Below, piece by piece: positions 16,475 to 45,037 of a DNA stretch of 47,177 nucleotides. A model generated the notes under the pieces. The model worked only from the letters and a program-made list of their open reading frames with translations. It was not told the origin of the DNA and did not search any database. The translations under genes were made by a program, and so were the position numbers. This DNA comes from Tenacibaculum sp. (GTDB taxonomy: Bacteria > Bacteroidota > Bacteroidia > Flavobacteriales > Flavobacteriaceae), in NCBI GenBank assembly GCA_018456245.1, contig JAGYHQ010000009.1, positions 1 to 47,177 of the forward strand, given 5' to 3'. How positions within the stretch are numbered: the first letter of the stretch is position 1; every line of letters starts with the position of its first letter.

Positions 16475-16480
16475 TTAAGG

Positions 16481-17542
16481 TTATATTTTTTGTAAAAATT
16501 CCAAAGTATTTACTCCATCAGCATAATCCCATAATTTAGGATGTTGAGTTTGCCCAAATGCTATTTCATTATTAGTAAAGTTTTTTGAAACTATACATTG
16601 TATTTTTTCTTCGTCTTTTTGTAATTTTTGTTTTAAATCTTCTAAATCATTATAATATTCGTAAAAAACGGTTGCGATAGGGGAAGCGTAGCTTTCGTCT
16701 TCTTTAATCATTAAAAAACCATTTTCTAAAATATTAAATTCACTCATTAAATACACAGCTTTGTTATAATCGTAATTATTAGCGTATTTTTTATTGTTTA
16801 TAATATCTTTTTTAGTGTACATTCCTTTAAAGAAAAGGTCAAAATTATAATCTTTAGGAACAAATAATTTAGAAACTGAACGACATCCTAACCCAAAATA
16901 ATGAAAAACATCATCACTTAATTTTATATAATCTTCCTCTGTTTCATTTCCTGTAATAACAGCAACTGAATTTCTGTTTTTTCTTATAATATTAGGTTTG
17001 TTTTTAAAATAATACTCAAAATAACGAGCTGTATTATTGCTTCCTGTTGCAATTACGGCATCAAAATTTGTTAATTTTTCATCAGTAAATGTTATCTTTT
17101 CTTTAAGTTCATTATTAACAAATTCTAAATATTTTGCTAAAAAAGGTAATAAATGTTTATCGTTTGAAGATTGTTTTACCAAAACCGAATGCCCCGAAAT
17201 TAAAACACATAAAAAATCATGAAAACCAACTAATGGTATATTTCCTGCCATTATTATGGCAACTGTTTTACTGGAATTGGGGTTGATTTTTTCTTTTGCA
17301 ATCCATTTATTAACATTCTCTTCAGATAAAGCATCAGCCCAATTTTCACAACTTAATAACAAGTTATCATTAGTAAACCAAGTATTATTTTCTTCGGCTA
17401 ATTTTAATTGATGTTTAAATCCGTCAAAAAATAAATCATTGTGTTCAATATTTTCTTTCTTCTCAATTTTTTGTTGGGAAAACTGACTTAAAAATTCCCC
17501 TAACTTTATAAACGCCTGTATTCTATTTTGGATTTTGCTCAT
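16481..17542 (-). CDS. LuxC-like acyl-CoA reductase family protein
   Basis: 353 residues of the acyl-CoA reductase/aldehyde dehydrogenase-like LuxC family. MAGNIPLVGFHDFL, a Rossmann-type segment ending VIATGSNNTARYFEYYF, and the nucleophile C220 in YFGLGCRSVSKLF are visible. Family members reduce acyl groups to aldehydes; the flavobacterial substrate is unknown. It is the first gene of the serC/SerA-like/DUF1015/yggS operon and is divergent from the ferredoxin gene with only ~70 bp between start codons, an arrangement seen across Flavobacteriaceae. Confidence 0.85.
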   Translation of the reverse strand: MSKIQNRIQAFIKLGEFLSQFSQQKIEKKENIEHNDLFFDGFKHQLKLAEENNTWFTNDNLLLSCENWADALSEENVNKWIAKEKINPNSSKTVAIIMAGNIPLVGFHDFLCVLISGHSVLVKQSSNDKHLLPFLAKYLEFVNNELKEKITFTDEKLTNFDAVIATGSNNTARYFEYYFKNKPNIIRKNRNSVAVITGNETEEDYIKLSDDVFHYFGLGCRSVSKLFVPKDYNFDLFFKGMYTKKDIINNKKYANNYDYNKAVYLMSEFNILENGFLMIKEDESYASPIATVFYEYYNDLEDLKQKLQKDEEKIQCIVSKNFTNNEIAFGQTQHPKLWDYADGVNTLEFLQKI

Positions 17543-31020: not shown

Positions 31021-31024
31021 TTTT

Positions 31025-31133
31025 CGGACAAATTGAAAGTTGTACTTTATTTTTGTCCAAAAATAGTCTTTATTTTTGATGTGAGCAAATAAAAAAATCG
31101 GACAAATTGAAACTACAACTTTCAATTTGTCCG
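31025..31133. repeat. Three copies of CGGACAAATTGAAA around the ATPase promoter
   Basis: Direct copies lie at 31025-31038 and 31099-31112, and an inverted copy at 31120-31133. The last two form a hairpin with a 21-bp perfect stem (31092-31112 / 31120-31140) and a 7-nt loop. The first copy extends to 20 bp complementary to 31114-31133. The copies sit on both sides of the ATPase promoter at 31058-31089. Confidence 0.8.
31058..31089 (-). promoter_or_regulatory. Promoter of the DUF4143 ATPase gene
   Basis: On the minus strand TTTG (31089-31086), 20-bp spacer, TATTTTTG (31065-31058): a full -33/-7 match, 38 bp before the ATG at 31020. Confidence 0.65.
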
Positions 31134-31169
31134 ATTTTTTAAGTTTAAAAACTAAAATGATGGATAAAA

Positions 31170-31235: not shown

Positions 31236-32354
31236 ATGAAAAATTGGAATTGGAAACATAAGGATTGGGCAAATTTTACTTACAATAAAGAACAAATTAA
31301 CGAGTTAGAATTAGAACTTGCAAATTTAACTGGTGTTATTGTAGGTATATTAAAAAGTTTTGACCAGTACGGGAATGAACGCTTTTTGGTAGATTTAATG
31401 AGCAATGAGGCTCTTAAAACTTCCGAAATAGAGGGCGAATTATTAAATCGTGATAGTGTGCAGTCTTCTATACAGCGAAATTTGGGCTTTAAAATTACGG
31501 AAAGTTCTGTTCGTAAAGTAACTCCTGCTGAATATGGTATTGCTGAAATGATGGTGGATTTATATAAAAATTTTGATACCAAACTTACTGATGAAAGTTT
31601 GTTTGAGTGGCATAAAATGCTGACTAACGGTAGGCGAGATTTATTGGATATAGGGCGTTACCGAACACATAAAGAGCCGATGCAAATTGTTTCAGGTAGC
31701 ATCAACAGACCTATTGTGCATTATGAAGCACCTCCTTCTTCTGAAATGCAGAAAGAAATGTCTAATTTTATAAAATGGTTTAATGATAATCATTTTGATA
31801 CTCCTACCGAATTAACACCGATAGTTAAGGCAGGAATAACACATTTTTATTTTGTAACAATACACCCTTTTGAAGATGGAAATGGTCGTATTGCAAGAGC
31901 ATTGACTGAAAAATCATTAGGATTAAGTTTAGGAAAACCGTCTTATACTTCATTGTCAAAAACGATTAATGAAAACAAAAAAATGTATTATACGGCTCTT
32001 GAAAAGCATAACACAACGCTAAATCTTACCGATTGGCTCGTATATTTTGGTGAGTTATTAATTCAATCGCAGAAAAATACCATAGAATTATTAGAATTTA
32101 CCATTGCTAAAACGCATTTTTTTGATAAGCATAAAAGCATCTTAAATGAACGACAAATTAAGGTTATTCAACGAATATTTAAAGAGGGAGTAAAAGGCTT
32201 TGACGGTGGATTAAGTGCCAAAAATTACAAAACAATTTCAGGTACATCAGATGCTACAACTACTCGTGACCTTAAAGATTTGGTTGATAAAGGAATATTT
32301 ATGAAAACAGGGCAATTGAAAGGGACTAGGTATTTTATAGTGCTTGATAGTTAA
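31236..32354 (+). CDS. Fic-domain protein (DUF4172 N-terminus), class II self-inhibited
   Basis: 372 residues. A DUF4172-type N-terminus is followed by the Fic domain and a winged-helix-like C-terminus (about 305-370, SGTSDATTTRDLKDLVDKGIF). The active-site motif HPFEDGNGRIAR (210-221) is complete, predicting transfer of AMP or another nucleotide to protein hydroxyls. The inhibitory motif [ST]xxxE[GN] is present on the N-terminal helix as TSEIEG (62-67), so it is a class II enzyme that carries its own antitoxin helix. Divergent from the DUF4143 ATPase gene. Confidence 0.93.
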   Translation: MKNWNWKHKDWANFTYNKEQINELELELANLTGVIVGILKSFDQYGNERFLVDLMSNEALKTSEIEGELLNRDSVQSSIQRNLGFKITESSVRKVTPAEYGIAEMMVDLYKNFDTKLTDESLFEWHKMLTNGRRDLLDIGRYRTHKEPMQIVSGSINRPIVHYEAPPSSEMQKEMSNFIKWFNDNHFDTPTELTPIVKAGITHFYFVTIHPFEDGNGRIARALTEKSLGLSLGKPSYTSLSKTINENKKMYYTALEKHNTTLNLTDWLVYFGELLIQSQKNTIELLEFTIAKTHFFDKHKSILNERQIKVIQRIFKEGVKGFDGGLSAKNYKTISGTSDATTTRDLKDLVDKGIFMKTGQLKGTRYFIVLDS

Positions 32355-32529
32355 TTTTTCTTCTAAATCATTTATTTGCTAATAATCAATTTTAAAACTT
32401 AAGTTTATTATTATGATACTGATTTTTTATATTTTTGTGTTTGAGTTTGTTAATAGGCTATTTCGTAGGGGTAGTTCAATTTGCCTTATAGATATAATAG
32501 TGAGTTGTAGGTGTTTTTGATTTACCACC
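32355..32529. other. AT-rich spacer after the Fic gene, no gene seen
   Basis: No open frame with coding character. The Fic stop is followed by T-rich sequence without a clear terminator stem. The conserved palindromic spacer element begins at 32530. Confidence 0.5.
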
Positions 32530-32622
32530 CAACTTTATTTAAATTGCTTATTTTTGATTAATTTAGCAACCAAAATAAGGTTTAGTTGAGGGAGAGGAGA
32601 CTATAATTTTTTAATTGCTACT
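32530..32622 (+). repeat. Spacer element copy A (degenerate palindrome plus conserved block)
   Basis: An imperfect inverted repeat (32530-32588) begins CAACTTTATTT and ends AATAAGGTTTAGTTG, centred on the -7-like box TATTTTTG (32549-32556). TTTTTTAATTGCTACT follows at 32607-32622. Copy A precedes the unknown-protein/unfoldase cassette. It could be its promoter and leader, since the gene starts ~50 bp later. Confidence 0.6.
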
Positions 32623-32675
32623 ATATACCCTTTCTCTGAGCCGTTGTGGTAATTTATTAAAAGAAAAAGAAAAAA

Positions 32676-33542
32676 ATGATATTCAATATATATTACATAA
32701 ATCTTCCAAAAGTGTACGAAATTAAAATGATGTTAGATAATGTCATTTTGTTGAACAAAAAATTGGAAAAAAATAAAAATATAGAAGGGCAAACAGAACT
32801 TGGAGCGAAATTTGATATTGGTAATAAATTTTTCAAATTATTAAATGTAGAAGGAGATGGAAAAGGCAGAATTTCTGGAAGTTCCGCTCAAAAAGTACTT
32901 GAAACTTTTGAGGTTAAAAACACAAAATCTGTCATTCTAAAAGAGGTTTTAGAAAATTCAAAACTAATTAAATCATTTGAAAATGTTGTAGAAGGAGAAC
33001 TTATCAGAGTAAATAATGTCTCATTAACTTTAGAAAATGAGCCTGAATTAAGAGTTGTAAAACTATTTACTAGTGATGCTTTTAAAGGGATGACTGTTCC
33101 TGGAGCAAAAGGTTTTGATTTGAACAATCTTTTCAATTCAATGTTTAAAGATTACGCATATAAGTTGAAAGGAACAATTTTAGGTTTGGAAGAAAATATC
33201 CTCATTAAAATACCAATGACATTTGAGAACGAATTTGAAAGTTCCTATAGTGTAGATGATTTATTTATTGGAAAAGTTTCTTTAGTTGGTCTTTATAAGG
33301 GGAAAATAAAGCTTAGAGAATTAAAAAACTCATTAGAGTTTTTTCAAGAAATGGGAAATATTCAAAATATGGTAAATCCTCAAAGTGAAGATGATGAAAT
33401 TCAGAATAGTCAATATGAGGATGTTAAATATAATGATAACTATAATCCATTTTTGAGTAGTCTACAAGATGATAAGGAATATCATTATATAGACATATTA
33501 TCAATCATTCAAACTATAAATACACCTAAAAAGAATGATTAG
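32676..33542 (+). CDS. Unknown protein paired with a Clp-type unfoldase (weak DUF6414 resemblance)
   Basis: 288 residues, no signal or membrane helix. It opens MIFNIYYINLPKVYEIKMML, then a charged helical stretch, then FEVKNTKSVILKEVLENSKLIKSFENVVEGELIRVNNVSLTL, which recalls DUF6414-type proteins. The similarity is by memory and unsure. A glycine-rich segment lies at about 65-85 (EGDGKGRISGSSAQ). The last 60 residues are acidic. It overlaps the ATPase gene by 8 bp, so the two are made together. As cargo of a mobile element between Fic and a restriction system, a defence role is plausible but inferred. Confidence 0.6.
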   Translation: MIFNIYYINLPKVYEIKMMLDNVILLNKKLEKNKNIEGQTELGAKFDIGNKFFKLLNVEGDGKGRISGSSAQKVLETFEVKNTKSVILKEVLENSKLIKSFENVVEGELIRVNNVSLTLENEPELRVVKLFTSDAFKGMTVPGAKGFDLNNLFNSMFKDYAYKLKGTILGLEENILIKIPMTFENEFESSYSVDDLFIGKVSLVGLYKGKIKLRELKNSLEFFQEMGNIQNMVNPQSEDDEIQNSQYEDVKYNDNYNPFLSSLQDDKEYHYIDILSIIQTINTPKKND

Positions 33543-34698
33543 TAAAGAGAAACTATATTTATATAATCTTTCAAAGTTCAAGGAACTTAAGTCATATTAT
33601 TCAGAGCAAGAAAAAGAGATTTTGAGCATAACAGAATTTATCTTAAATGAATCTTTAATTGAAGAATTAATAGGTTACGAATATATCATTGATATAACTG
33701 CACTGACAGACATTAATCAGTATAATGTTGAAAGGCTAATTAACCTATTTGATAATTCTTTCACTTTTATTGCAAATATAAAACACAAACGATTTTTTGA
33801 AGAAGAATTAAGATTCTGCTTTGATGAATTTGTGATATTTAATGATTATGTTGAGAATAAAGATAACTTAAATGATAGAAAGAAAACCTCTATTAAAAAA
33901 CACAAAAAAATAATTGATATTGAGCAGGATCAATTACATCTGTTTTTTGAAAAAATAGACCAATCTCTTTACGGACATCAAAAATTTAAGGATGATTTAA
34001 AAAAACAAATAGAAAATTTTAGAGTATTTAATAAACTTGGTGAACATCTAATATTATCACTTTTCTTAATGGGAGATTCTGGTGTTGGTAAAACTGAAGT
34101 AGCAAGAACAATTCATAAAGCACTTGGAGGTGAAAATAAAATGGCTAAAATTAATTTCGGAAATTACAGTAGCGATAATTCACTAAACTCACTAATAGGA
34201 AGTCCAAGAGGTTATATAGGTAGTGATGATGGAGAAATTTTTATAAGAGTTGCAGAATCTGATACAGGAATAATATTAATTGATGAATTTGAAAAGTCAA
34301 ATTCTACGCTTTTTAACTACTTTCTCGATGTTTTAGAGAGTGGCAGAATGATAAGTTCTTTGGCTCACGAAATTGACTTAAATGGTTTTATAATCATTTT
34401 CACTTCCAACATATCAAGAGATAATTTTAAAAAAGTTATTTCGCCTGAATTACGCTCAAGATTTGATTACAAAGGGTATTTCACAATTCTTAAATCAGAG
34501 GATAAAAGTAAATATGTCGAATTTAGATTAAATAGTATTATTCGAAAATTCAATAAAAATGTTGATAATCTTTTAGATGATAATTTCAAACACGAAGTTT
34601 TTAGAAAAATTAATGTGACAAAATTTAAGAATATGAGAGATTTGAATAAAAGTATTAAGCAAGTTTTTGTAAAAGAATTAAAAACAAAAATAATATAA
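33535..34698 (+). CDS. Clp/HSP100-type AAA+ ATPase with a novel N-terminal region
   Basis: 387 residues. Residues 1-130 match nothing I know. Residues 140-387 are a single AAA+ module of the ClpA/ClpB D2 type: YGHQKFKDDLKKQI, Walker A GDSGVGKT (180-187), pore-loop GYIG (226-229, in SLIGSPRGYIGSDDG, compare GYVG of Clp unfoldases), Walker B IILIDE (246-251), sensor 1 TSN (290-292) and arginine finger ELRSRF (305-310). The GYIG loop implies threading of a protein substrate. There is no peptidase and no ClpP-binding loop is obvious. Overlaps its partner gene by 8 bp. Confidence 0.85.
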   Translation: MISKEKLYLYNLSKFKELKSYYSEQEKEILSITEFILNESLIEELIGYEYIIDITALTDINQYNVERLINLFDNSFTFIANIKHKRFFEEELRFCFDEFVIFNDYVENKDNLNDRKKTSIKKHKKIIDIEQDQLHLFFEKIDQSLYGHQKFKDDLKKQIENFRVFNKLGEHLILSLFLMGDSGVGKTEVARTIHKALGGENKMAKINFGNYSSDNSLNSLIGSPRGYIGSDDGEIFIRVAESDTGIILIDEFEKSNSTLFNYFLDVLESGRMISSLAHEIDLNGFIIIFTSNISRDNFKKVISPELRSRFDYKGYFTILKSEDKSKYVEFRLNSIIRKFNKNVDNLLDDNFKHEVFRKINVTKFKNMRDLNKSIKQVFVKELKTKII

Positions 34699-34756
34699 AA
34701 TACTATACGCAAAAGTATATAAGTTATAGTATTTTAGTTTGTACTTTTTAAATCAT

Positions 34757-34861
34757 CTAAACCTTATTTCTATTTTTTTTCGTAAATCTGAAAAATTAAA
34801 TTAAAGTTTAGCTAAGAGTGGTGTTAGAATTATAGATTAAAGCTTTTTATCCGTTAATACT
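34757..34861 (+). repeat. Spacer element copy B
   Basis: An imperfect palindrome (34757-34811) starts CTAAACCTTATTTCTATTTT and ends AAATTAAAGTTTAG, centred on TAAATCTG (34783-34790). CTTTTTATCCGTTAATACT follows at 34843-34861. It lies between the unfoldase cassette and the restriction-modification pair. Confidence 0.65.
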
Positions 34862-34923
34862 CGTCACTACATTGATTGTATTAAATAATAATAACTAATT
34901 AAAAATAAAACACTTAAAGAATA

Positions 34924-36785
34924 GTGAATAGAATTGAAATAATAAACAAAATTGGTGCTCAATATCAGATTGGAAATACAGAATCTGGAGAATTTAGTTA
35001 TTCATCAGCTCTTAAATCAATAGGGAAAGATATTAAGAATTTTCAGAAAGGTAATACAAGTACAAACCACCAGTATTTAGATATAAGATTTGAAAATGAA
35101 CGACTTTGTATTTTAATAGAAACAAAAAACAGGTTTAGTAAATGGAAAAAAGAAAAAATTCAGAAACAGCTTCAAGATTACGTTCGTTTTGAAAAAGCCT
35201 ATTCCAACAAAAAAATTGTTGCGATTCTTGCTGAAACAGAGGGTGATGATGTTTGGGTTTGGTATGGTCAATCAGTAATTATAGATGATGAACATAAAGT
35301 TCTTGAAGAAACTGAACTAAAAACCTTTGAAGAATATGAGGAAATCTGCTTTGGTAAAGTCAATGATAAAATCAAAGTAATAGATTCTATAAAAACCCTT
35401 AATGAAAAATTACATTCAGACGGAGTAAACGAAAAATTAAGAAGTCAATTTGTAGGAACTTGTCTTTTAGCCTTAAAAAATGGTTTAGTATATGAAAATA
35501 TAAAGACCACTATTAACCCTAAAACTGGTAAACCTCTAAATGCAGAAACTGTAGTAGTCGATAATATCAAAAATATTTTAGAAGGTTTACTAACGAAAAG
35601 TGGGAGTATAAATAAGGCTAGCAAGTTAGCAATTCTTAATAATAAAGTTTTAGATGACCAAGATGTACAAAGCCTAACTTACATAGAATTAACCGATATT
35701 TTAAAATTTATAGATACTAATATAGTGCCTTACATAAACGATAAAAATACGGCTGGACAAGATTTACTGAATTTATTCTTTACAACCTTTAATAAATATG
35801 TAGGGAAATCTGATAAAAACCAAGCTTTTACGCCAGACCATATTTGTAGTTTTATGAGTAAAGTTGTGGGGGTTAATAAACATTCAAGGGTTTTAGACCC
35901 TTGTTGTGGTAGTGGTGCTTTTCTTGTAAGAGCTATGACAGACGCAATGGATGATTGTGAAAATGAAGATGAACGAGAAAAAGTAAAACAAGAGCAAATT
36001 TTTGGAATTGAATATGAAGCAGGTGCATTTGGTTTGTCATCTACAAATATGTTAATTCACGGAGATGGAAACTCAAATGTTATCCAAGACTCATTATTTA
36101 ATAAAGGTAAGTGGATTGAAAATAATGATATTAATGTGGTGTTGATGAATCCACCATATACGCAACTAAGAAATTTTGTAATCCAGAGTATACAAAAAAA
36201 TGGGATAGTAAGAAAAAAGAAGACCCTTCAAAAGGATTTCATTTTGTAGAATGGGTGGCTAGACATGTATCTCCGTTAGCTAAAATGGCAGTGTTACTTC
36301 CAATGCAAGCAGCTATAGGTAATAGTAAAGATGTCAAAGAATTTAAGAAAAAAATGTTAGATAAATATACTTTAGAAGCTGTATTTTCTTTACCTGTTGA
36401 AGTATTTTATCCAGGTGCAGCAGCAGTTGCTGTGTGCATGGTTTTTGACCTTTCCCAAAAACATATTAAAGCAAATAAAGAGACATTTTTTGGCTATTAC
36501 CGAGATGATAAGTTTACAAAAAGAAAAGGACTTGGTAGAGTTGAAATGACCGATGAAAAAGGAAATAGTTTATGGGCAAAAACAGAAGAATTGTGGCTTG
36601 ATTTGTATAAAAACAAAAAGCAAGTAGCAGGTTTTTCTGTTATGCAGAAAGTTTGTTGGAAAGATGAATGGTTGGCAGAAGCGTATATGGAAACGGATTA
36701 TAGTAGTCTTGAATCTGATGATTTTGAAAAAACATTAAGAGATTATTATTCATACATAATTAAAAATGGTGGAGAAAATGCTTAA
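34924..36785 (+). pseudogene. BcgI-like nuclease-methylase subunit, broken by a frameshift
   Basis: The GTG at 34924 opens a 441-codon frame that stops at 36249. The rest of the gene continues in another frame to 36785. Restoring one base at about 36157-36161 gives a 620-residue protein. An N-terminal nuclease-like motif (D53...E66-T-K68, ILIETKNR) is followed by an N6-adenine methylase: VLDPCCGSGAFLVRAM (motif I) and VVLMNPPY (motif IV). The shift falls just after NPPY; the other frame reads ATKKFCNPEYTKKWDS and continues into GFHFVEWVARHVSPL. Nuclease and methylase in one chain with a separate specificity protein is the BcgI (type IIB) layout; BcgIA is similar in size. Confidence 0.82.
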
Positions 36786-37887
36786 TACTAATATTTGGGA
36801 AGAATTTTGTCTGGATGATTTATTTGATATTTGTCCTGGTAAATACCATAGTAAGGATGAATATGATGAAGGAATAACACCTTATGTTACAGCTTCAGCA
36901 AATAATAACGGCATAGCACAGAGAATAAGTTTAATGCCTGATTTTAAAGGAAATGCTATAACAACAGGGAAAGTTGGTTGCACAGCATTTTATCAAATAG
37001 AAGATTTTTGCGCTTCAAGTGATGTTAATGTCCTTAGAGCGAGTAAGTTTAAGATGAGTTCTAAAATAGGTGTTTTTATTACATCTATTATAAACTTTTC
37101 TGAAAACTACAAATGGACTTATGGTAGACAATGTCGTGTAGGTGACAGTAAAAAAATTGTAATAAAACTACCTATCTTGTTTGATGAAAATCAGAATCCA
37201 ATAATTGATAATGAAAAGAAATTTAATCCTAAAGGTTATGTTCCTGATTTTGAATTAATGGAAAGGTTTATAGAGGGTAAATTAAATAATAGTCTTATTG
37301 GAAATTCATTAAAAACAGGGAACCAAAACAATAAAGCTTTGTTTGAAACAGAAAATTGGAAAGAATTTTATTTATATAAGCTTTTTAACATTACTATGGG
37401 GAATGGAATTGATGCTAACAAGACTAGTAATTTTGATCCGAAATACAATTATGTGTCAAGAGATAGTAATGGAAACGGTGTTGTTGGTATTGTAGATGAA
37501 ATAGAAGGTGAAAATCCATTTCCAGCAGGAGCAATGTCTGTTGCTTTGGGTGGTAGTTTTTTAGGGTCTTGTTTTATTCAAAGAAAACCTTTTTACACTG
37601 CTCAAAATGTTGCAGTTTTACAAGAAAAAGAACCTCTTTCGGTTTATACAAAACTATTTATTTCTTCTCTAGTTCGTAATGAATGTAAGATTAAGTATTT
37701 AGCATTTGGGCGAGAATTAAACTCTCATATAAGGAAAGATTTTACAATCAAACTACCTATTTTGAAAAAAGGTAATGAAACTGTTATTGATAAAGAAAAA
37801 GATTATTCAGAAAGTGGATATGTACCTGATTGGAAATTAATGGAAGAAATTATTAAAAAACTACCTTACGGAGATAGAATTGAATAA
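36766..37887 (+). CDS. Specificity subunit of a BcgI-like/type I restriction system
   Basis: 373 residues with two target-recognition domains of similar build (about 8-185 and 200-370), each opening W-(K/E)EF-x-L-x-x-LF (WEEFCLDDLFDI, WKEFYLYKLFNI) and closing with KGYVPDFELMERFIEG / SGYVPDWKLMEEIIKK. The repeated closing helix is where two halves of HsdS-type proteins pack. It reads the two half-sites of a split DNA target. It overlaps the methylase gene by 20 bp if the ATG at 36766 is used; the ATG at 36778, after GGTGGAGAAA, is an alternative. With the partner frameshifted it is probably an orphan. Confidence 0.85.
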   Translation: MVEKMLNTNIWEEFCLDDLFDICPGKYHSKDEYDEGITPYVTASANNNGIAQRISLMPDFKGNAITTGKVGCTAFYQIEDFCASSDVNVLRASKFKMSSKIGVFITSIINFSENYKWTYGRQCRVGDSKKIVIKLPILFDENQNPIIDNEKKFNPKGYVPDFELMERFIEGKLNNSLIGNSLKTGNQNNKALFETENWKEFYLYKLFNITMGNGIDANKTSNFDPKYNYVSRDSNGNGVVGIVDEIEGENPFPAGAMSVALGGSFLGSCFIQRKPFYTAQNVAVLQEKEPLSVYTKLFISSLVRNECKIKYLAFGRELNSHIRKDFTIKLPILKKGNETVIDKEKDYSESGYVPDWKLMEEIIKKLPYGDRIE

Positions 37888-37967
37888 AAAACTACTACTA
37901 GCAATATAATGTATTTAAGTAATATATTTTTAATTGTTTAACTTAAATTTTAGATATTTTTAACCCG

Positions 37968-38071
37968 CCAAACCTTATTTCTAATTTTTTTCGTAAATTT
38001 GAAAAAATTAGAAATAAGGTTTGGATAAATGTAATACCAAAATTAAAGTCTTCATTTTTTAATCCGCTACT
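37968..38071 (+). repeat. Spacer element copy C (perfect 23-bp palindrome)
   Basis: The left arm (37968-37990) begins CCAAACCTTATTTCTAAT and pairs perfectly over 23 bp with 38002-38024, ending AAATAAGGTTTGG. The 11-nt loop carries TAAATTTG (37994-38001). TTTTTTAATCCGCTACT follows at 38055-38071. No plus-strand gene follows; the next genes run toward it on the minus strand, so this copy is an orphan. Confidence 0.75.
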
Positions 38072-38121
38072 GTTCATACACTAAACCGTTAACCTTGTTT
38101 TTAGAACTTACACACTGTCTT

Positions 38122-38571
38122 TTATTTCATTTGAATTAACAAACTCAAAATTACAACCACAAATCCCCCAACCAAAGTAGCCACTAAATAATTCGGTAAT
38201 CTACCAAAACCAACTTTGCCTAATTTCTTAACTTCTGCTTGTATCTCGTAAAGTTGAGAATTGAGTTTTCGTGTTTCTTCGTTGAGTTTGTTTTGTTCTT
38301 CTGCCACTCGTTTCATTGTTTCTTGGATAAGGAGTAGATATTCTGCTTGTGGCTCTCGGAATTTAATTAAAAATTCATTGCCAACCTTTTTGAAATTCGT
38401 AGGGTCAACATCTATCTTTTGATTGTGTTGTGCTTGAATATCTAACAACGCATTTTTAATCGTGTGACTTGCTTTGTTTTCAATAAGTTTCAATTCCTCA
38501 ATTTGTTGCATCAATACTTCTGCAATATCTTGAACATTCATCTGTTTTTTGTGTGTTTTTCGTTGTGCCAT
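38122..38571 (-). CDS. Coiled-coil membrane protein downstream of the relaxase
   Basis: 149 residues: a basic N-terminus (MAQRKTHKKQMN), a long charged helical/coiled-coil stretch (about 15-120, QETMKRVAEEQNKLNEETRKLNSQLYEIQAEVKKLG) and one C-terminal transmembrane helix (about 128-147). It lies 12 bp downstream of the relaxase gene, the usual place of a MobB-like accessory protein in Bacteroidota mobilizable elements. It may hold the relaxosome at the membrane or the helper's coupling protein. Role inferred from position and topology. Confidence 0.65.
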   Translation of the reverse strand: MAQRKTHKKQMNVQDIAEVLMQQIEELKLIENKASHTIKNALLDIQAQHNQKIDVDPTNFKKVGNEFLIKFREPQAEYLLLIQETMKRVAEEQNKLNEETRKLNSQLYEIQAEVKKLGKVGFGRLPNYLVATLVGGFVVVILSLLIQMK

Positions 38572-38583
38572 AATTTTCTGTTT

Positions 38584-39399
38584 TTATCTTCGTATTCTAA
38601 ATTTTTGTTGTGGTTGTTCTTCTTGTGTTGTCTGTTTTGTTTGTACTTTTTCTTGTGTTTGGTGTCGTTCATCTTCGCTATAAAACTTCATTCGTGAAAG
38701 TGTCATTTGCCGATGTACTTCCGATGCTTTTAGATTTACACCGTCAAATTCCACTCGGTAGCCTTGTAATTTTCCTTGTTTGTTGATACTTGGTATAATA
38801 TCCACTTTTTGTGATTTCATAAGGTCTTGGTATTCCTTAAAATTCCTCACTTTGTGGTCGTTGAGTGCAATTTTATGTCGCCTGAAAATCTCTTTTCGTA
38901 ATTCCTTAAACTCCTCTAATTTGGCAATTTTCTTAATTCCCTTGACTTCCGTTGCTCGTGTCAATCCTCGTTCTTGTGCAATGTCATCGGCGATGCGTTG
39001 TGCTTTTTTGCCGATAAATTTATCATCGTGAGCCTTGCCTTTTTGGTCTATCCGATTAACGAGAATATGTAAGTGTTTGTGTTTGCCTTTCGGATTGTGT
39101 TTGACCACAATATATTGATGTTTGTCAAGTCCGATTTTCATTAAAAAGTCTTTGGCAATATCCAAAAAATCATCGTTTGAAAGTCGGTTTCCGTCCGAAA
39201 TACTTGGCGAAATCACAAAGGAATAATCGTTATTGATACAGCGTTGATTTCTATTTTGAAAAAACACAAATTCCGACTTTATTTCCTGTCCATTATTGCC
39301 GATGATATTGTGCTTTATTAACACTTCGGCATCATCTTTTCGCAAGGCATAATCAATACCTTCTTTGGCGTGTGTAATCGCTTTTCTTAATCCTATCAT
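38584..39399 (-). CDS. Relaxase / mobilization nuclease
   Basis: 271 residues, relaxase (Pfam 03432-type) fold. The metal-binding histidine triad is in KGKHKHLHILVNRID, preceded by SFVISPSISDGNRLS. A tyrosine for strand cleavage should lie near the N-terminus; Y17 in EGIDYALRKDD is a candidate. The C-terminal ~100 residues are basic and charged. It nicks oriT and stays bound to the transferred strand. Its start overlaps the end of the mobC-like gene by 4 bp. No coupling protein or transfer apparatus is nearby, so mobilization in trans is expected. Confidence 0.92.
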   Translation of the reverse strand: MIGLRKAITHAKEGIDYALRKDDAEVLIKHNIIGNNGQEIKSEFVFFQNRNQRCINNDYSFVISPSISDGNRLSNDDFLDIAKDFLMKIGLDKHQYIVVKHNPKGKHKHLHILVNRIDQKGKAHDDKFIGKKAQRIADDIAQERGLTRATEVKGIKKIAKLEEFKELRKEIFRRHKIALNDHKVRNFKEYQDLMKSQKVDIIPSINKQGKLQGYRVEFDGVNLKASEVHRQMTLSRMKFYSEDERHQTQEKVQTKQTTQEEQPQQKFRIRR

Positions 39400-39692
39400 C
39401 TTCTAAATTTTTTCAGTTCGTTTTTTAAATCGTAAGCCACTTTTCTAACTTCGTTTGACAAAATACTATCCTTGTGTTTGAAATAATTTGCCAAACGCTC
39501 AAAGTCGTTTATAAAGCGAGTGAAATTGTTGTAAATCTCAATTTCTTCATCGGTTAAAGCATAGGTTATCCGTTTGTCAAAAATGGTGTTTCTGCAAAAT
39601 TCCGACAATCTTAAATTGCATTTTTTCGCTCTATTTTTGATGATGTCTTTTTCTAATTTACTTACTCTAAATCGTATCGTTTCTGTTCTCAT
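39396..39692 (-). CDS. MobC-like relaxosome accessory protein
   Basis: 98 residues. The first ~50 (RTETIRFRVSKLEKDIIKNRAKKCNLRLSEFCRN) have the ribbon-helix-helix pattern of MobC-type DNA-binding accessory proteins, followed by helices. It probably binds oriT and helps the relaxase open it. First gene of the mobilization operon; the candidate oriT lies directly upstream (39693-39773). Confidence 0.87.
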   Translation of the reverse strand: MRTETIRFRVSKLEKDIIKNRAKKCNLRLSEFCRNTIFDKRITYALTDEEIEIYNNFTRFINDFERLANYFKHKDSILSNEVRKVAYDLKNELKKFRR

Positions 39693-39773
39693 ATTGTCTT
39701 AATCTTCTTTAAAACTTTTGCGACCGCAGGGAGAAAAACGAGTGGGGATATGGGGTGCAAAAAAATCCGTAGG
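39693..39773. other. Candidate origin of transfer (oriT)
   Basis: An 81-bp gap upstream of the mobC-like gene contains a G/C-rich patch (GCGACCGCAGGGAG, then GAGTGGGGATATGGGGTGCA) unlike the surrounding AT-rich sequence. Position next to mobC/relaxase is where oriT lies in related elements. No nic site could be identified by eye. Confidence 0.4.
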
Positions 39774-40655
39774 TTAATTTTTTTGTGCCACATATCCACA
39801 TCTCGAATGCAACTTTTCGCCATCTGTTTTATGTATTAAATATTCGTTTAAATCGTTGTGTTTTCTGTAATGGTTTCGGCAGTCTGTAAGTTTATTTCTA
39901 TCTACTTTTTGTGTCAAAATCTCAAAGGCTTTATCGCCTGAATTGTCATTGTCAAAAAATACTTTTATAGTCTTAAAATGATTGATTTTGGAACTTATCC
40001 TTTTGACCATTGCTGTTGAATTAAGAATGATAAAACTCTCGTTTGTCATTCCTTTTTTCAAGGTTAAATACGATAGAAAATCAGACCACGATTCAAACAA
40101 GCAAATCGTGTTTAAATTTCTGTAAAAAGTCGTTACATCTTTTTTCCCTAAACAGCCTTTGAAAAACTGATTTCGCACTTCATAACCATCGGAATTATTT
40201 TTAAAGCCGATAGCGTAATAGCGTTTGGAATTATTAAAAGTATAATGAATTTCACAACAAAAATGCGTTGCTATTTGAGGGTTTATTTTTCGGCTTTTGA
40301 GGTAATTTATCAAGTTGCAATTTGTTATCTTTTGAATACTTAAAATTTGATATTTCGGTTGTTCCTCAAAAGTTGTTTGCTGATGAAAAGAAAAAGAATT
40401 TTTAGATAAAATTTCTAATGCTTTTTGCGTATCACAATGATGTAATTTCATCACAAAATCAATGATAGTCCCGCCACAACCTTCCCCAAAGTCATACCAT
40501 ATATTTTTTATCGTATCCACTTTAAAAGAGCGTGTTTTTTCAGTCCTAAAAGGCGATAAAAACCACACCTGATTTCCTTTTGTATTGTGAGGTGTAAATC
40601 CTAATTTTTTCATAAAATCAACTAAATCTATTTGTTTTGCTTGTGTACAGTTCAT
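39774..40655 (-). CDS. DNA primase-like protein (CHC2-type plus Toprim)
   Basis: 293 residues. The N-terminal CHC2-like region (about 10-90) has QVWFLSPFRTEKTRSFKVDTIKNIWYDFGEGCGGTIIDFV; the usual zinc cysteines are mostly absent, as in many Bacteroidota element primases. The Toprim domain (about 175-265) shows ICLFESWSDFLSYL (Glu) and KVFFDNDNSGDKAFEIL (DxD). It would prime replication of the excised element or convert transferred single strands. It is downstream of the primase-helicase with the iteron-like cluster between. Confidence 0.88.
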   Translation of the reverse strand: MNCTQAKQIDLVDFMKKLGFTPHNTKGNQVWFLSPFRTEKTRSFKVDTIKNIWYDFGEGCGGTIIDFVMKLHHCDTQKALEILSKNSFSFHQQTTFEEQPKYQILSIQKITNCNLINYLKSRKINPQIATHFCCEIHYTFNNSKRYYAIGFKNNSDGYEVRNQFFKGCLGKKDVTTFYRNLNTICLFESWSDFLSYLTLKKGMTNESFIILNSTAMVKRISSKINHFKTIKVFFDNDNSGDKAFEILTQKVDRNKLTDCRNHYRKHNDLNEYLIHKTDGEKLHSRCGYVAQKN

Positions 40656-40670
40656 AAGTCTGTGTTTTTT

Positions 40671-40822
40671 GATGAAATGATGACTAAAATGCTTGTGTCC
40701 CTTTATTTATAAGGATTTCAAGCAGTCATCACTTTGTCATCGTTTCATCATTTTTGATTTTTTTTGTTCATCATTTTTATAACTTTTTAAAAGTGATGAC
40801 AAAATGATGACAAAACGATGAG
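40671..40822. repeat. Iteron-like ATGATGAC cluster, candidate replication origin or operator
   Basis: Groups of GATGA/GATGAC units: direct GATGAAATGATGACTAAAA at 40671-40689, inverted TCATCACTTTGTCATCGTTTCATCA around 40726-40750 (given in part), another TTCATCATTTTT near 40768, and direct GTGATGACAAAATGATGAC followed by AAAACGATGAG ending at 40821. An AT-rich core (about 40751-40790) separates inverted from direct groups. Located between the primase-helicase and primase genes. Confidence 0.55.
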
Positions 40823-40860
40823 CGTTTAATTTATTTATTATTAGTAAGTTATAATTATAT

Positions 40861-42075
40861 TTATTCGTTATTCATCAATTCATCAAAATTTTTCATCAAA
40901 AAAACTTTATCTACCGAAAAATAACGACCTTTATTGTCAGAAAGCACTATATCGCCATCACTCAACACCGTAAATTTGCGATACGAAAGTGAGTTTTTTT
41001 GGTTTTTGATGTTCCAGTCCTTTTTGAGAATTGTTCGTATTTGTGTGAGGTCGGTTTTTACTCTTGTTTTGTTCAAAGCATTGAGTAAATCAAACGGAAC
41101 AAAATCAACCTTATCTAAATCAAATTTTTCTAATACACTGATTAGAATTTGAGCAATTTCCTTTTCTACTCGGTTACGATTATTACTGACTAATTTTTTA
41201 AGTGCAGGAGTGTAAATTTGTTTCGGAGTAAACCACATTCTTGTTTTCTTTTCACTCGCAAAACTTCTCTGTTTTATAAAATGCAAAAACGCAGGAATTT
41301 CTTGTGTCAATTTTTGTAAAAAATCAACATCTTCAACTTCTATTTTTGGCACTTTGATTATCCAAAAACGAATTTCATCTGCATCAATTTTGATAAAACT
41401 GTCCTCTTTGTTGGAGCACATTATAAATTTACCAAAGAAATCAACCTCAAATCGTTCTTTTCCTTTTGCCTCTATCTTATTTTTGTTTGAAGTGGATAAA
41501 TATTTGATTTTCTCTGTAATTTCTTCCTTTTGAAAAAATGCCTCGTCCAAACCTAAAATAAGTTTGTTTCCCCAGTCCAAATTGAAATTTGAATTTAGCG
41601 AATGACTATCTAAATAAGACATATTGTGTCCAAAAACTTCTTTTAAGTATTTTAGAAATGAAGATTTTCCTGTCGCTCTTTCTTTACTAACCAAACAAAG
41701 CACTGGTAATGGTTGTTGTGGGATTTCGTATAATAACTTAAAATAGTCCAAACCATACTCAAACTGATTGCCAAAAATATGTTTGAAAAATTTTAAGGTG
41801 TTTTCATATTGTCCTTGTTTTGGTTGGTGTTTCAAAGGCGAATAGGTATTGTAAAATCCAAAGATTTCTTTTGAAAACTCAATATGATTAGGAAAACAAA
41901 TACTTCCGTCATACTTGGGTATTTTGCTTAAAAAATCTCGGTTGTGGTCTTGGATTATTGTGTTTTTATCCCACTTAATTAAGGTTTCGTTAAATTCGTC
42001 ATTTATCGTTGGAACTTGAACTATTTTAAAATAACTCGTTCCTATTCTGATGTAAGGTATGTCTTGATGTTTCAT
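40861..42075 (-). CDS. Primase-helicase-type ATPase of the mobile element
   Basis: 404 residues. Walker A is KERATGKSSFLKYL (about 133-146) and the Walker B-like strand is LILGLDEAFF, followed by IMCSNKEDSFIKID (sensor) and IRFWIIKVPK. This is the SF3-like helicase/ATPase found in primase-helicase proteins of phages and Bacteroidota integrative elements. The C-terminal ~120 residues are a winged-helix-like region. It probably unwinds element DNA together with the separate primase encoded downstream. Confidence 0.82.
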   Translation of the reverse strand: MKHQDIPYIRIGTSYFKIVQVPTINDEFNETLIKWDKNTIIQDHNRDFLSKIPKYDGSICFPNHIEFSKEIFGFYNTYSPLKHQPKQGQYENTLKFFKHIFGNQFEYGLDYFKLLYEIPQQPLPVLCLVSKERATGKSSFLKYLKEVFGHNMSYLDSHSLNSNFNLDWGNKLILGLDEAFFQKEEITEKIKYLSTSNKNKIEAKGKERFEVDFFGKFIMCSNKEDSFIKIDADEIRFWIIKVPKIEVEDVDFLQKLTQEIPAFLHFIKQRSFASEKKTRMWFTPKQIYTPALKKLVSNNRNRVEKEIAQILISVLEKFDLDKVDFVPFDLLNALNKTRVKTDLTQIRTILKKDWNIKNQKNSLSYRKFTVLSDGDIVLSDNKGRYFSVDKVFLMKNFDELMNNE

Positions 42076-42141
42076 TTTGATGATAGATGTTTAAATCATA
42101 CCTTTGTGGTACGATTATATTCGTAAATAATTGAAATAAAT

Positions 42142-42173
42142 AGCATAAAAGTGAGGGCTTTTATGCTTTTTTT
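42142..42173. terminator. Hairpin at the 3' end of the HTH gene
   Basis: AGCATAAAAG (42142-42151) pairs with CTTTTATGCT (42158-42167), loop TGAGGG. It includes the stop codon of the HTH gene. The T run is on the plus-strand side; on the minus strand the following sequence is only moderately T-rich, so it may terminate weakly or stabilise the mRNA end. Confidence 0.5.
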
Positions 42174-42445
42174 ATAAAAGCATAAGACAATGCTTCTTTT
42201 TCAAGTTCAATTGATGATTTTCGGTTATTTTGTAATAACCAATTATCAAGTTTTTTCTTATCAAAAAAGATAACCTTTCCATTAGGTTTGGAATGTGGGA
42301 TATTAGCCGAACTTGTTAATTTATACATATAACTCGGCTTTATACCTGTGTATTCACAGGCTTCTTCAAAGGTTAGTACAGTCTTGTTTGATAGTAATAA
42401 TTTTTCTAATCTATCAAATCGTTGTTTTAATTCTATTGTGTCCAT
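42161..42445 (-). CDS. Excisionase-like helix-turn-helix protein
   Basis: 94 residues. After a short helical N-terminus the HTH_17/MerR-type domain (about 24-72) reads LTFEEACEYTGIKPSYMYKLTSSANIPHSKPNGKVIFFDKKKLDNWL, the standard DNA-binding module of Bacteroidota element excisionases/regulators. It probably controls excision, or expression of the replication/mobilization genes just downstream. A perfect 16-bp palindrome lies 27 bp upstream of its start. Confidence 0.88.
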   Translation of the reverse strand: MDTIELKQRFDRLEKLLLSNKTVLTFEEACEYTGIKPSYMYKLTSSANIPHSKPNGKVIFFDKKKLDNWLLQNNRKSSIELEKEALSYAFIKKA

Positions 42446-42471
42446 TTTTCTTGTTTTTTAAATTAAAAATG

Positions 42472-42487
42472 AACAAACGCGTTTGTT
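42472..42487. promoter_or_regulatory. Perfect 16-bp palindrome, candidate operator
   Basis: AACAAACGCGTTTGTT, upstream of the HTH gene. A symmetric GC-centred site in AT-rich DNA in front of a regulator gene suggests an operator, perhaps autoregulatory. Confidence 0.45.
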
Positions 42488-42561
42488 TTCTTTTAGATAT
42501 CTGAGGACAAAGAAAAGAAGAAATAAAACCTTAAGATGAAATAGTAATTTATTATTATTTA

Positions 42562-43886
42562 TTATTCTTTAACTATCAGTAAATCAGTATTTAAATCTTC
42601 AATAAATAATAATAAAGCTCTTCTGCTTTTTGAATTTTTGATAAAAGAATTATTAGTTAACTCATTTTTTAAATTAGTTCTATGAATTCTAAAAGTTTCT
42701 ATATCAAAATTGTTTTTCTTGTTACTGATAATTAAGTTAGAATTAACAAGACTTTCTATTTTTTGCTTGTCAATATAGTGTCCATTTTCAAGAAAAATGA
42801 GAAGATAACAAAATATTTTTACATCAACATTAATAAAATATTTGTTTGTTTCAACCTGTTTAAATTCTTTAAACTTTGGATTTAGTAGATTATCTAAAAA
42901 ATCGTTTATTTCATTTTCTGAAATTTTTAAAAATGATTTTAAAATTTTTCTTAATGATTTTTTTTGGTCACTAGTTAGTTTGTTTTTAATGTTTTGCTTT
43001 TTTGTATGTTTAATTTCTTTAATATTGGTGTCAATTATCTCAAGTTTTTCATTTTGATTAGTGATTTTTTTATTGGTTTCATTAGAAATATTATTAGAAT
43101 CTCTAAGGTTAGAATCAATTATCTTAAGTTTTTTATCTTGATTAGTAATTTTACTATTAATTTTTTTTGTAGTTTTATTTGAGTCTATAACATTGGTGTT
43201 GATGTTTTCAAGTTTTTCATCAATATCTTTAAAAATAGTTTTTTTATTTCTTTTTCCGATATAAGTTGATGAAGGTCTTTATTGAAATTATCATTTAAAA
43301 TTACTCCTTTTTCACTGAAAACAATATTTGTATATATTAAAGTTGCTAATTCTTTATAATTAAAGACTTGTACATTATCTATTAAAGGTTTGATGTATGA
43401 TAAAGAATCCTTGGTAATATTTATAAAATTAAAATAATCACGAATCCATACATTTGAACTTGCTTGTTTGATTTTATTTGTAAAAAAATCAGTATTTAGA
43501 TTTTCTGTTATTTTATCAGTAAAATATTCAAATTCTTGCAAATTCATAATATCTTTAAATTCTTTAAGGTCTTCGTTTTTAATAACTTGTATAATGGTGT
43601 CATAAAATTTTTTCTTTTCTTCTATTGAATACATTAAATAACTGCCTTTTGAAGAATTTATGTATTTTGTTCTATAAAAATTATTGTAAAAATTTTTCCT
43701 TTTGTAAATCATTATTGCAAATACAGTTAAACAAAAAGCACATAAAACTATTTTTAATGGTATATATAATTTCATATCTAAAAACATAAATAGTGTAGCA
43801 ATTGGTGATATTACAAAACTAAAAAATGCAACTTTTTCATTTTTCCATAATGTATGGTGAAGTAAATAATCAATATGTTTTCTCAT
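42562..43886 (-). pseudogene. Membrane/coiled-coil protein split by a -1 frameshift at an A7 run
   Basis: The first frame (43886-43185) encodes 233 residues with two membrane helices (about 20-60, FFSFVISPIATLFMFLDMKLYIPLKIVLCAFCLTVFAI). A second open frame without any ATG continues to a stop at 42564-42562. Joining them by a -1 shift at seven A residues on the coding strand (43245-43239, in codons ATA AAA AAA) gives a 441-residue protein: membrane anchor, helical domain, heptad-rich repeats (KITNQDKKLKIIDSN, KITNQNEKLEIIDTN) and a 120-residue C-terminal domain. Its start overlaps the integrase stop by 4 bp. Function unknown. It may be a decayed gene, a programmed frameshift or a sequencing slip. 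Confidence 0.72.
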
Positions 43887-45037
43887 AATTCAAATTTTAA
43901 AGTTGGTATTAAATAAGCGGCTTCTTTCATTTTTTTATCAATGATTTTAGCGTAAATTTCGGTAGTTCTAATTTCTTTGTGTCCAAGTCGTTTAGAAACG
44001 GTATAAATGTCAGCACCATTCTCTAATAATAAAACAGCGTTGGTATGTCGTGCAGAATGAAAAGTAATGTGTTTCGTAATTCCTGCTTTCATACACCATT
44101 TAAGTAAGTTGATATTCATTTGAGCAGAATAATGAAGATTTACAAAAACTCTATCCATTGGATTTTTTCTTTCCCCTAAAAGTTTTCGTGCTTGTTCTGA
44201 AATGTATAAATATTCTACGCCTTTTGTCTTTTTCTGAGAAAATACAACTCTGTGAATTTGTTTTCCGTTTTCATCAATCCCTTCATCTCTGACTTCGCTC
44301 CATTTCATTTTATTAATATCCGACCAGCGAATTCCTGTAAGACAAGAAAAAATGAATGCTGTTTTTAAAATAGTGTGTTTTGTATGTGTTTCTGAAAGTT
44401 TTTTAACTTCATCAAGGGTCAAATATTCTCTGTGTGTTTCTCCTGCTGGAATACTTTTGACCTTTGCAACAAGGTTTTCTTTTAAATACCCTTCCTCAAA
44501 TGCAGAACGCAAACAAGCCTTAAATTTATTGTAATATGAATGTCTTGTATTTTGTGAAAGAGGTAATCCTGATTTTGCTTTTGCTTCGTTGTTTAAATAA
44601 TTTTTAAAGCCATTAACGAATTCAATATTAATATCATTAAATGTTGTTTGTGTAGGGCAATAAGCCTTTAAATGTATCTGAGCCGAAAGCCAGTTGTTGT
44701 AATTATTTACAGAAGTTGATACTCTTTCTTCTGTTTTGAGATGATAATACTCTAAAAAATTAAAATTAGATTTATCTGAATTTACAATTCCATATTTACC
44801 TTGATGGTATTCTGCTTGTCGGATTGCTAAAACTTTTTCTGCAAATTTTTGAGTTTCTTTATTCTGTTGTTTTTCTTCTTTGGTAGTAGGGTTGATGATT
44901 AAATACTTTTTTAGATATTCAAAATCTCTTTTATGAACAGTTTTTCCATTATTGTCTATTGTTGTTCCATTATAGTATTCAATAAACAAACTATACTTAC
45001 CTGATTTTAGTTTTTTCTTTTTTAACGCTATTTTCAT
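43883..45037 (-). CDS. Tyrosine-type site-specific integrase
   Basis: 384 residues. An arm-binding N-terminus (1-85) and a SAM-like core-binding domain (about 90-195) precede the catalytic domain with the full set: R237 (TGIRWSD), K272 (KKTKG), H327 and R330 (FHSARHT), H353 (LGHKEI) and nucleophile Y362 (TEIYAKI). It cuts and joins at the mnmE-like core sites. The gene is ~170 bp inside the right end and is transcribed inward. A TACTTTTG -7 box lies at 45108-45101, and the AGGTGT palindrome directly in front of the start may allow the integrase or excisionase to control it. Confidence 0.95.
   Translation of the reverse strand: MKIALKKKKLKSGKYSLFIEYYNGTTIDNNGKTVHKRDFEYLKKYLIINPTTKEEKQQNKETQKFAEKVLAIRQAEYHQGKYGIVNSDKSNFNFLEYYHLKTEERVSTSVNNYNNWLSAQIHLKAYCPTQTTFNDINIEFVNGFKNYLNNEAKAKSGLPLSQNTRHSYYNKFKACLRSAFEEGYLKENLVAKVKSIPAGETHREYLTLDEVKKLSETHTKHTILKTAFIFSCLTGIRWSDINKMKWSEVRDEGIDENGKQIHRVVFSQKKTKGVEYLYISEQARKLLGERKNPMDRVFVNLHYSAQMNINLLKWCMKAGITKHITFHSARHTNAVLLLENGADIYTVSKRLGHKEIRTTEIYAKIIDKKMKEAAYLIPTLKFEL

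Follow-up and report, generated by a model that had tools for sequence, protein, structure and literature searches.

The locus

The window analyzed here, a stretch of 47,177 nucleotides of contig JAGYHQ010000009.1 from Tenacibaculum sp. (assembly GCA_018456245.1), contains three copies (A, B and C) of a palindromic spacer element, which alternate with unrelated genes ahead of the backbone of an apparently mobilizable island. Sequence comparisons suggest that these copies are very probably decayed members of a family of attC-like sites, belonging to an integron-like system that is widespread in Bacteroidota. The copies and the genes between them are the following:

31236-32354, + strand: Fic protein (DUF4172 and Fic domains), the cassette gene ended by copy A; PADLOC SoFic model, 153.9 bits
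32484-32645, + strand: copy A, degenerate long-form attC-like site, 3' of the Fic gene; right core CCG|TTGTGG from 32641
32530-32590, no strand: apical (inner) palindrome of copy A, the inverted repeat of the preliminary description; weak hairpin energy
32676-33542, + strand: PDC-M37A, gene 1 of cassette 2; 357.9 bits, with a very weak DolA match
33535-34698, + strand: PDC-M37B AAA ATPase, gene 2 of cassette 2; 491 bits, with a DolB match of 99 bits
34703-34876, + strand: copy B, degenerate long-form site, 3' of the PDC-M37B gene; ends approximate
34757-34815, no strand: apical palindrome of copy B
34924-36249, + strand: N6 DNA methylase (type IIG/I-like), first part, cassette 3; continues in a second reading frame
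36255-36785, + strand: second part of the methylase (split gene), cassette 3
36766-37887, + strand: specificity subunit (Methylase_S), cassette 3
37892-38090, + strand: copy C, long-form site; right arm near-intact (CCGCTACTGTTCATACACTAAACC|GTT, ending at 38090), left arm degenerate
37892-37902: R''-like CTACTACTAGC of copy C
37968-38024, no strand: apical palindrome of copy C; perfect 23-nt arms

The three spacers with a shared palindrome that had been singled out in the preliminary description all lie where they were placed, and are homologous beyond the level of shuffled sequence. The local alignment scores are 64 for A and B, 66 for A and C, and 126 for B and C, against maxima of 61, 65 and 76 in dinucleotide shuffles, with none of 500 shuffles scoring as high in any pair; the alignment of A with c19a, a copy elsewhere in the same genome, was likewise reached by none of 500 shuffles. 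The likeness is therefore greater than expected of random AT-rich DNA, with the homology of copy A to B and C exceeding the shuffles narrowly. The palindrome of copy C (37968-38024) has 23-nt arms of 100% complementarity around an 11-nt loop, and its hairpin energy is strong (0 of 300 shuffles as low), while those of A (20 of 300) and B (16 of 300) are weak.

The palindrome of 55-59 bp initially taken as the unit is real, but it is merely the apex of a site of about 185 bp with outer inverted arms, and the full units span approximately 32484-32645 (A), 34703-34876 (B) and 37892-38090 (C). The conserved block TTTTTTAATCCGCTACT, previously noticed downstream of the palindrome, contains the beginning of the right arm, whose partner left arm precedes the palindrome. 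The central TAAATTTG box does not hold as a shared feature, since the form of about 125 bp lacks the inner palindrome.

A family of foldable sites

The outer arms of the family read GTGTATAAGCAATAGC on the left and CCGCTACTGCTCATACAC on the right (the right end occurring also as ...CCGCTACTGYTCATACAC), and are inverted repeats of each other with two differences. The sites come in a widespread short form of about 125 bp and a long form of about 185 bp, which adds an apical hairpin. A, B and C align along their length with long-form sites of other genomes, and the window palindrome corresponds to their apical hairpin (AGCCAAA...TTTGGC), a feature that those genomes conserve. Across 59 related genomes the arm pattern, with at most two mismatches, gave 49 matches versus 15 for the reversed pattern, and 24 of the 49 constitute 12 inverted pairs that are 96-169 bp long. 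A scan of 84,980 species genomes for one of the arms returned at least 118 stretches; among the 80 titles listed 79 are from Bacteroidota and one is a Verrucomicrobia metagenome-assembled genome (MAG). Among the matches listed, 115 of 119 have a partner arm, most commonly at an end-to-end distance of 118 bp, and two of the four partnerless ones sit at the edge of a stretch. A BLAST search of phage and plasmid records with the copy C element gave no match.

Two individual sites lie outside the usual setting. The contig labeled as the Verrucomicrobia MAG carries an intact-looking site (L135, 1051-1174), which would reflect either misbinning or spread across phyla. A strong site of 98.8 bits (L179, 1081-1203) lies on an IMG/VR viral contig, pointing either to a cassette on a phage or to a host contig; it was the only site match in the viral contigs searched.

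At two positions one arm nearly always has G and the other A. This asymmetry implies that full pairing, with two G·T (G·U) pairs, is available on one strand only. For a structural model, 155 pattern-defined sites were reduced by script to 75 diverse ones, of which 56 were aligned by hand and used to build a covariance model, R1; the hand alignment omitted six backwards reads of the same element and 13 others without a stated rule, and the structure count redone on all 69 forward sites had the same outcome. In these 69 diverse sites 98.1% of the cells of an 18-pair stem are paired and 11 of the 18 pairs show changes on both sides (98.4% and 11 pairs in the hand-trimmed 56). None of 500 shuffles reached any of five measures on the 69-site stem, and sliding the stem partner by one to three columns lowers pairing to 21-53%. 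The G·T pairs are kept in 19 and 20 of 20 long-form sites that the model found in other genomes, in which 11 of the 14 other pairs vary. Among sites in integrase loci, 80 distinct well-paired ones have G·T at the two positions in about 75 and about 78 cases, two reading registers combined; re-dealing the arms between integrase-locus sites lowers pairing from 93% to 57%, with the register picked per site, which favors the observed value.

In alignment the outer stem is free of bulges and has conserved G·T pairs in place of the extrahelical bases of an L'' arm. In the inner region the long-form apical hairpin is the sole consensus structure, and extrahelical bases may occur outside the outer stem. 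In overall form the sites are attC-like imperfect palindromes, with a foldable bottom strand, an internal spacer and a variable tip, and with a small difference in stability between the strands. The core of integron attC sites has the consensus GTTRRRY / RYYYAAC. The sites of this family end with GTT in a different context: GTTR is present in 172 of 175 site ends with GTT and A at position 11 in 173, whereas the full GTTRRRY is found in only 12 of the 175.

Gene layout and cassette ends

The counts of sites are lower bounds, since the default filters lose sites, among them one of 76.7 bits in the source genome. R1 matches below 35 bits were omitted from the complementarity, array, cargo and repeat counts and from a set of 154 integrase-locus sites discussed below, the omitted matches including opposite-strand echoes of listed sites and a separate opposite-strand match of 28 bits in L191.

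With a simple open reading frame (ORF) caller, the gene on the E1 side of a site ends at the site in 98 of 107 cases, with the stop codon a median of 7 bp off; on the E2 side, 83 of 98 genes point away from the site, starting at a median of 23 bp. These counts indicate that genes and sites usually alternate, each gene being followed by a site and all running the same way. Start codons about 23-28 bp after the sites, a TAnnTTTG-like box in the apical loop of the window copies and the fact that the paired strand could also be RNA would all suit a promoter-operator or a riboregulatory element carried by each cassette, with no role in recombination. However, the strand with the G·U pairs is antisense to the cassette genes, and a scan of seven loci against Rfam found no family at gathering score, the sub-threshold matches being mostly microRNA-like and lying on the palindrome. 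For copy C and three copies elsewhere in its genome (c19a, c19b and c48) the next gene is convergent, and any gene that follows a site in the same direction is simply that of the next cassette. The promoter-operator role entertained in the preliminary description, which would also leave the cassette ends and their complementarity (see below) unexplained, is accordingly highly improbable.

If a gene with its site were excised as a circle, R'', at the left flank of the site, should match the start of its own cassette, about a kilobase off, and not the sequence to the right of the site. Among 142 cassettes shorter than 3.5 kb the own start and R'' agree at a mean of 9.52 of 11 positions and 133 score at least 9 of 11, as against 16 of 173 in the same-site control and 4.1% when pairs are drawn at random. 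Where the two disagree it is most often at the far end of these 11 nt, with C facing A in 126 of 142 cases, which is a G·T on the bottom strand. An initial version of the test, on arrays defined by pattern, gave a weaker signal (own mean 6.8, n=30), probably due to missed sites that merged cassettes. The cassette consists of a gene and a site in a single orientation, with R'' complementary to its own start.

Comparison of 194 cassettes revealed repeated units at different places, including a 1646-bp cassette that is 99.9% identical in two arrays of one genome (G001), a 550-bp cassette present five times at 100% identity in another (G009), and cassettes that are 93-96% alike between genomes of different species. 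In most cases the homology stops no more than a few bases from the predicted ends, and the flanks are mostly unrelated; neighboring copies in L219 often share a flank, as members of tandem families do. These duplicated cassettes with matching ends are the sole sign, and an indirect one, of integrase-dependent movement.

Outer inverted arms and dispersed copies are also what one would expect of miniature inverted-repeat transposable elements (MITEs), in which case a transposase would move the arms as terminal inverted repeats and the intervening genes would be bystanders; one left/right TTACC repeat, seen by eye at L020, fits this too. But MITEs, with their target duplications, should be independent of neighboring genes, whereas these sites are associated with gene 3' ends and are duplicated together with the gene. 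The strong orientation and tight spacing relative to genes, arrays of up to 25 sites on one strand, complementarity to the own cassette over about 1 kb, and covariation with conserved G·T pairs would all be unexpected of such elements, and we regard this origin as extremely improbable.

Integrases, arrays and a putative attI

Searches with R1 showed that in several genomes of the same genus long arrays of these attC-like sites adjoin a tyrosine recombinase of about 390 amino acids (aa). In 19 of 22 integrase loci with downstream sequence the integrase is followed by 1-25 sites scoring 35 bits or more, which share one orientation, with no opposite-strand site among them; in four further loci (L206, L208, L227 and L229) the sequence stops within some 0.6 kb of the integrase, and these were left uncounted. 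The integrase has two forms. The first, of about 365-400 aa, has an extra N-terminal stretch of about 90 aa and is co-directional with the cassettes; the second, of 272-330 aa (e.g. in G237), is divergent from the array in the five loci examined (L261, L265, L266, L276 and L277). The protein combines SAM-like and catalytic domains (PF00589, 130 bits) and has the R-K-H-R-H-Y set of tyrosine recombinases, with R223, K248, H312, R315, H338 and Y347 (numbering of the first row) invariant in 20 integrases. Two loci preserve damaged versions: in L213 a truncated family integrase (16303-16764) still lies beside an array of nine sites, as in decaying integrons, and the family integrase of L224 is interrupted.

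In 12 of the 19 loci the first cassette starts 27-138 bp past the integrase stop codon, and the junction there matches at 10 of 11 positions in eight loci and at 8-9 in four. ATATAAC shortly precedes GTT in 9 of these 12 attI-like junctions, e.g. CCATATAACGA|GTT. In the remaining seven loci the best first-start match lies farther off (perhaps owing to a missed first site) or is poor (L215). In silico, therefore, an attI-like site adjoins the integrase gene and is joined to the first cassette.

This overall design is that of integrons, and one may ask if canonical integrons, with IntI and canonical attC sites, have simply been overlooked in Bacteroidota; in keeping with this, the name of NCBI's XerA model contains 'integron integrase', and TIGR02249, NCBI's integron integrase model, scores 199-208 bits in three of the integrases. 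These values lie under the model's cut-off of 265 bits, above which there was no match in any of the 59 genomes. The IntI-specific additional domain around patch III, a segment of about 40 residues, is absent from all 25 Bacteroidota integrases in an alignment that included IntI1 and another IntI. The rarity of GTTRRRY among the site starts also speaks against canonical attC sites, as does the failure of R1 to match either of two plasmids with IntI-type integrases (a weak control), leaving overlooked canonical integrons a very unlikely explanation. TIGR02249 was rejected as a sole detector of the enzyme, as it also matches Xer proteins and has matches in all 14 control genomes. In a quick tree the Bacteroidota integrases and IntI stand apart from seven Xer proteins with SH-aLRT (approximate likelihood-ratio) support of 100, with long-branch warnings and an unsure placement of IntI.

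A plasmid of Flagellimonas marinaquae (NZ_CP092416.1; L278, 10816-13724) has a short-form integrase that is 81.6% identical to one from Zobellia, and two sites that flank a gene of the dihydrofolate reductase family, near erm(F). This appears to be a mobile form of the system.

Distribution and cargo

Sites were detected in 150 of 395 evenly drawn Bacteroidota genomes (E<=1e-4, strict filters). Scores with the integrase profile reach about 207 bits at the Xer level and are mostly above 300 bits in the family, with few in between. By the cut considered below, 115 of the 395 genomes are integrase-positive, and sites are present in 88 of these versus 62 of the 280 others (odds ratio 11.5). By analogy, genomes with sites and no integrase resemble those with CALINs, i.e. 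clusters of attC sites lacking an integrase.

Of the 162 cassettes that contain an ORF, 152 have the largest one running in the direction of the array, and 111 are single-gene; 21 further cassettes have no ORF of 60 aa. The genes between copies are indeed unrelated, as was first suggested, and the sites do not accompany one gene family: 148 cassette proteins, drawn at random from 205, represent 84 Pfam families, the best 25 of which have one to three members each. The families listed include glyoxalases and cyclic-nucleotide-binding, heavy-metal and contact-dependent-inhibition immunity domains. With PADLOC at E 1e-10, 51 models were matched, the best 25 of the 51 hitting one member each; the listed cargo includes PDC-S06 (in a cassette of the source genome), HEC-06, PDC-S31, PifA, AbiU, a type IV restriction enzyme and QatA. 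The integrase-proximal genes of a Zobellia array (L261, 3047-5433) encode a type III-A retron (reverse transcriptase, 508 bits; PRTase, 285 bits), an example of a defense system as cassette cargo. In the window itself all three cassettes match defense models, namely Fic, PDC-M37A/B and a restriction-modification-like set. The cargo between the window copies is defense-like, but cassettes elsewhere carry many other functions as well. The methylase of cassette 3 (34924-36785) is split over two reading frames (441 + 176 aa), and the restriction-modification cassette may accordingly be inactive.

A model for the system and the decay of the window sites

A working version of the system would comprise a tyrosine integrase of either form, an attI-like insertion point beside it, and an array of cassettes, each usually consisting of one gene and a site of about 125 or about 185 bp. 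By sequence, the bottom strand of the site can fold into an outer stem of 16-18 bp, which has both conserved G·T pairs, and an internal loop that is asymmetric. The first nine or so nucleotides of a cassette (GTTRNNNNN) complement the left flank of its own site, and cassettes recur as units that run from TT to the final G. The integrase is predicted to cut at G|TT, to excise cassettes as circles and to insert them at attI, presumably using the folded bottom strand as its substrate, in the manner of IntI on attC.

Several observations weigh against this model or against the placement of the window copies in it. The G·U pairs at the two positions, present in 64 and 69 of the 69 sites, are partly there by construction, as most of these sites come from a pattern fixing both G's. 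Twenty of the 154 integrase-locus sites (93 distinct arm pairs) pair at 13 or fewer of 18 positions, and the bottom strand is more stable than the top in 33 of 56 sites, by a slight mean of 0.8 kcal/mol. In a second set of loci, with the short and other integrases, own starts reach at least 9 of 11 in only 17 of 30 cassettes, the control within the same site giving 2 of 50. Two of these loci, L262 and L277, each have an array in which several sites are followed by one and the same 11-nt sequence (GTTGAAGAAGA and GTTCAGCAAGA), and the site of these lineages may be longer than the model. The repeat matches of L220_c1, L220_c4 and L226_c1 end inside cassettes, and that of L195_c3 stops 156 bp short at the right end. 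L221, L223 and L224 have an integrase match (interrupted in L224) and no sites. As to the co-occurrence, the integrase-positive cut (E 1e-65) falls where there is no clean gap in scores, only four integrase and eight site candidates were scored per genome, the Fisher p of 6e-24 takes genomes as independent, uncorrected for descent, and 27 of the 115 integrase-positive genomes have no site match. In the window, the outer stem retains 11 of 16 pairs in C, 10 in A and 7 in B, as against 14-16 in the other 23 aligned long-form sites; R1 recognizes copy C alone, at 24.2 bits; and the complementarity of start and R'' is down to 7 of 11 in cassette 3, with two places tying, and is lost in cassette 2 (at most 6 of 11 at any place).

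Apical hairpins persist despite the damaged outer stems, with 14 of 15 pairs in C, 13 in B and 12 in A. Among 5000 shuffled partners, 75 were as good as the outer stem of C, which is above chance, 393 as good as that of A, which is marginal, and 2218 as good as that of B, which is at chance level. The earlier view of copy C as the most perfect copy for recombination is contradicted by its outer stem; C is the most perfect in its apical hairpin. Elsewhere in the source genome copy C has three full-length relatives of 85-88% identity, two on contig C19 and one on C48, and the covariance model finds nine scattered sites at E<1e-4, with copy C tenth at E 0.1. No family integrase was found in this genome (96.5% complete) with the integrase profile, for which 4 of 9 candidates were scored and the best match (E 2e-50) is at the Xer level, or with TIGR02249, for which all nine were scored (best E 3.5e-21). 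The window copies are thus not intact sites in an integrase-bearing genome. The cassette-exchange site first proposed holds for the family in a stricter form, in which each copy is the 3' end of a cassette, like attC, but the window sites are decayed and their genome has no detected family integrase. The window therefore probably preserves fossil cassette ends on an island perhaps moving by other means, in a cluster that is CALIN-like.

The PDC-S06 cassette of the same genome is flanked by near-identical repeats of about 180 bp (L200, 5540-5722 and 8571-8750), which hold internal inverted repeats (TGTAGTGAAATACTCCGC...AAGCCGTGAGCCG). Both site ends are without the usual GTT, and this may mean insertion at a secondary site.

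Other features of the window

Copy C is followed by the island backbone:

38122-45037, - strand: island backbone, read as mobilizable from its gene content

It encodes a hypothetical protein, a relaxase, a NikA-like protein, a Toprim primase, a DUF5906 protein, an HTH_17 protein, another hypothetical protein and a phage-type tyrosine integrase (43883-45037), which adjoins mnmE. Three tandem 84-nt repeats, 61-71% alike, are located at 42983-43234, both beside the gene at 43185-43886 and at its end. Inverted repeats of 35 nt with 89% complementarity, unrelated to the cassette sites, lie at 31024-31134 between the genes for a DUF4143 ATPase and the Fic protein.

Relationship to known recombination systems

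Integrons are the best-known gene-capture machines of bacteria.

Bacteroidota are among the phyla listed with detected integrons (PMC8618304), and the IntegronFinder 2.0 description names a single complete integron from Bacteroidetes, in Salinibacter ruber (PMC9024848). The additional domain of IntI is described as necessary for integron recombination, and IntegronFinder needs this domain (PMC9668308), for which reason standard searches would be expected to miss the Bacteroidota integrases. A literature search, covering sources other than subscription papers and preprints, found no description of the site or of flavobacterial integrons, and no match to four arm sequences.

The closest known enzymes are Xer proteins and IntI. 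The Bacteroidota integrase shares the catalytic domain and the SAM-like N-domain with XerA (NF040815) and XerC/D, and three of the integrases score 203-218 bits with the NF040815 profile, just under its cut-off of 220; however, seven Xer proteins of the order group separately in the quick tree. The second-best PDB match is the Vibrio cholerae integrase IntI4/VchIntIA (2a3v), which aligns with both halves of the catalytic protein at 133.6 bits. The alignment is interrupted from chain residue 182 to 238, a stretch that corresponds to the IntI-specific segment missing in the Bacteroidota integrase.

With integrons, including sedentary chromosomal superintegrons and CALINs, the system shares an integrase that adjoins an attI-like site, unidirectional arrays whose cassettes mostly hold one gene, a G|TT core, and an imperfect palindrome that folds to leave an internal loop and a tip of variable form, as well as mobile units with defined ends, defense and hypothetical cargo, and clusters without integrase. 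It differs in that the integrase has no IntI-specific additional domain, and in its form of about 390 aa has an extra N-terminal stretch and is co-directional with the array. The core is GTTRNNNNNNA, with a longer cassette-specific R box, in place of the GTTRRRY of integrons; the outer stem has conserved G·T pairs and no evident extrahelical bases; and one recognizable site family extends across much of the phylum. It is rather likely that Bacteroidota, in a large part of the phylum, have an integron class of their own, in which an integrase lacking the IntI additional domain captures cassettes from folded single-stranded sites, recognizes G·T wobbles at conserved positions rather than extrahelical bases, and spreads complete anti-phage systems among marine Flavobacteriia. 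If so, such a system, widespread, equipped with integrases and reaching at least 25 sites per array, would overturn the picture of integrons as rare in Bacteroidota, and would suggest how flavobacteria shuffle their defense and adaptive genes. It would also provide a natural experiment on the additional domain of IntI, with relatives that lack the domain standing beside folded sites with a different strand signature.

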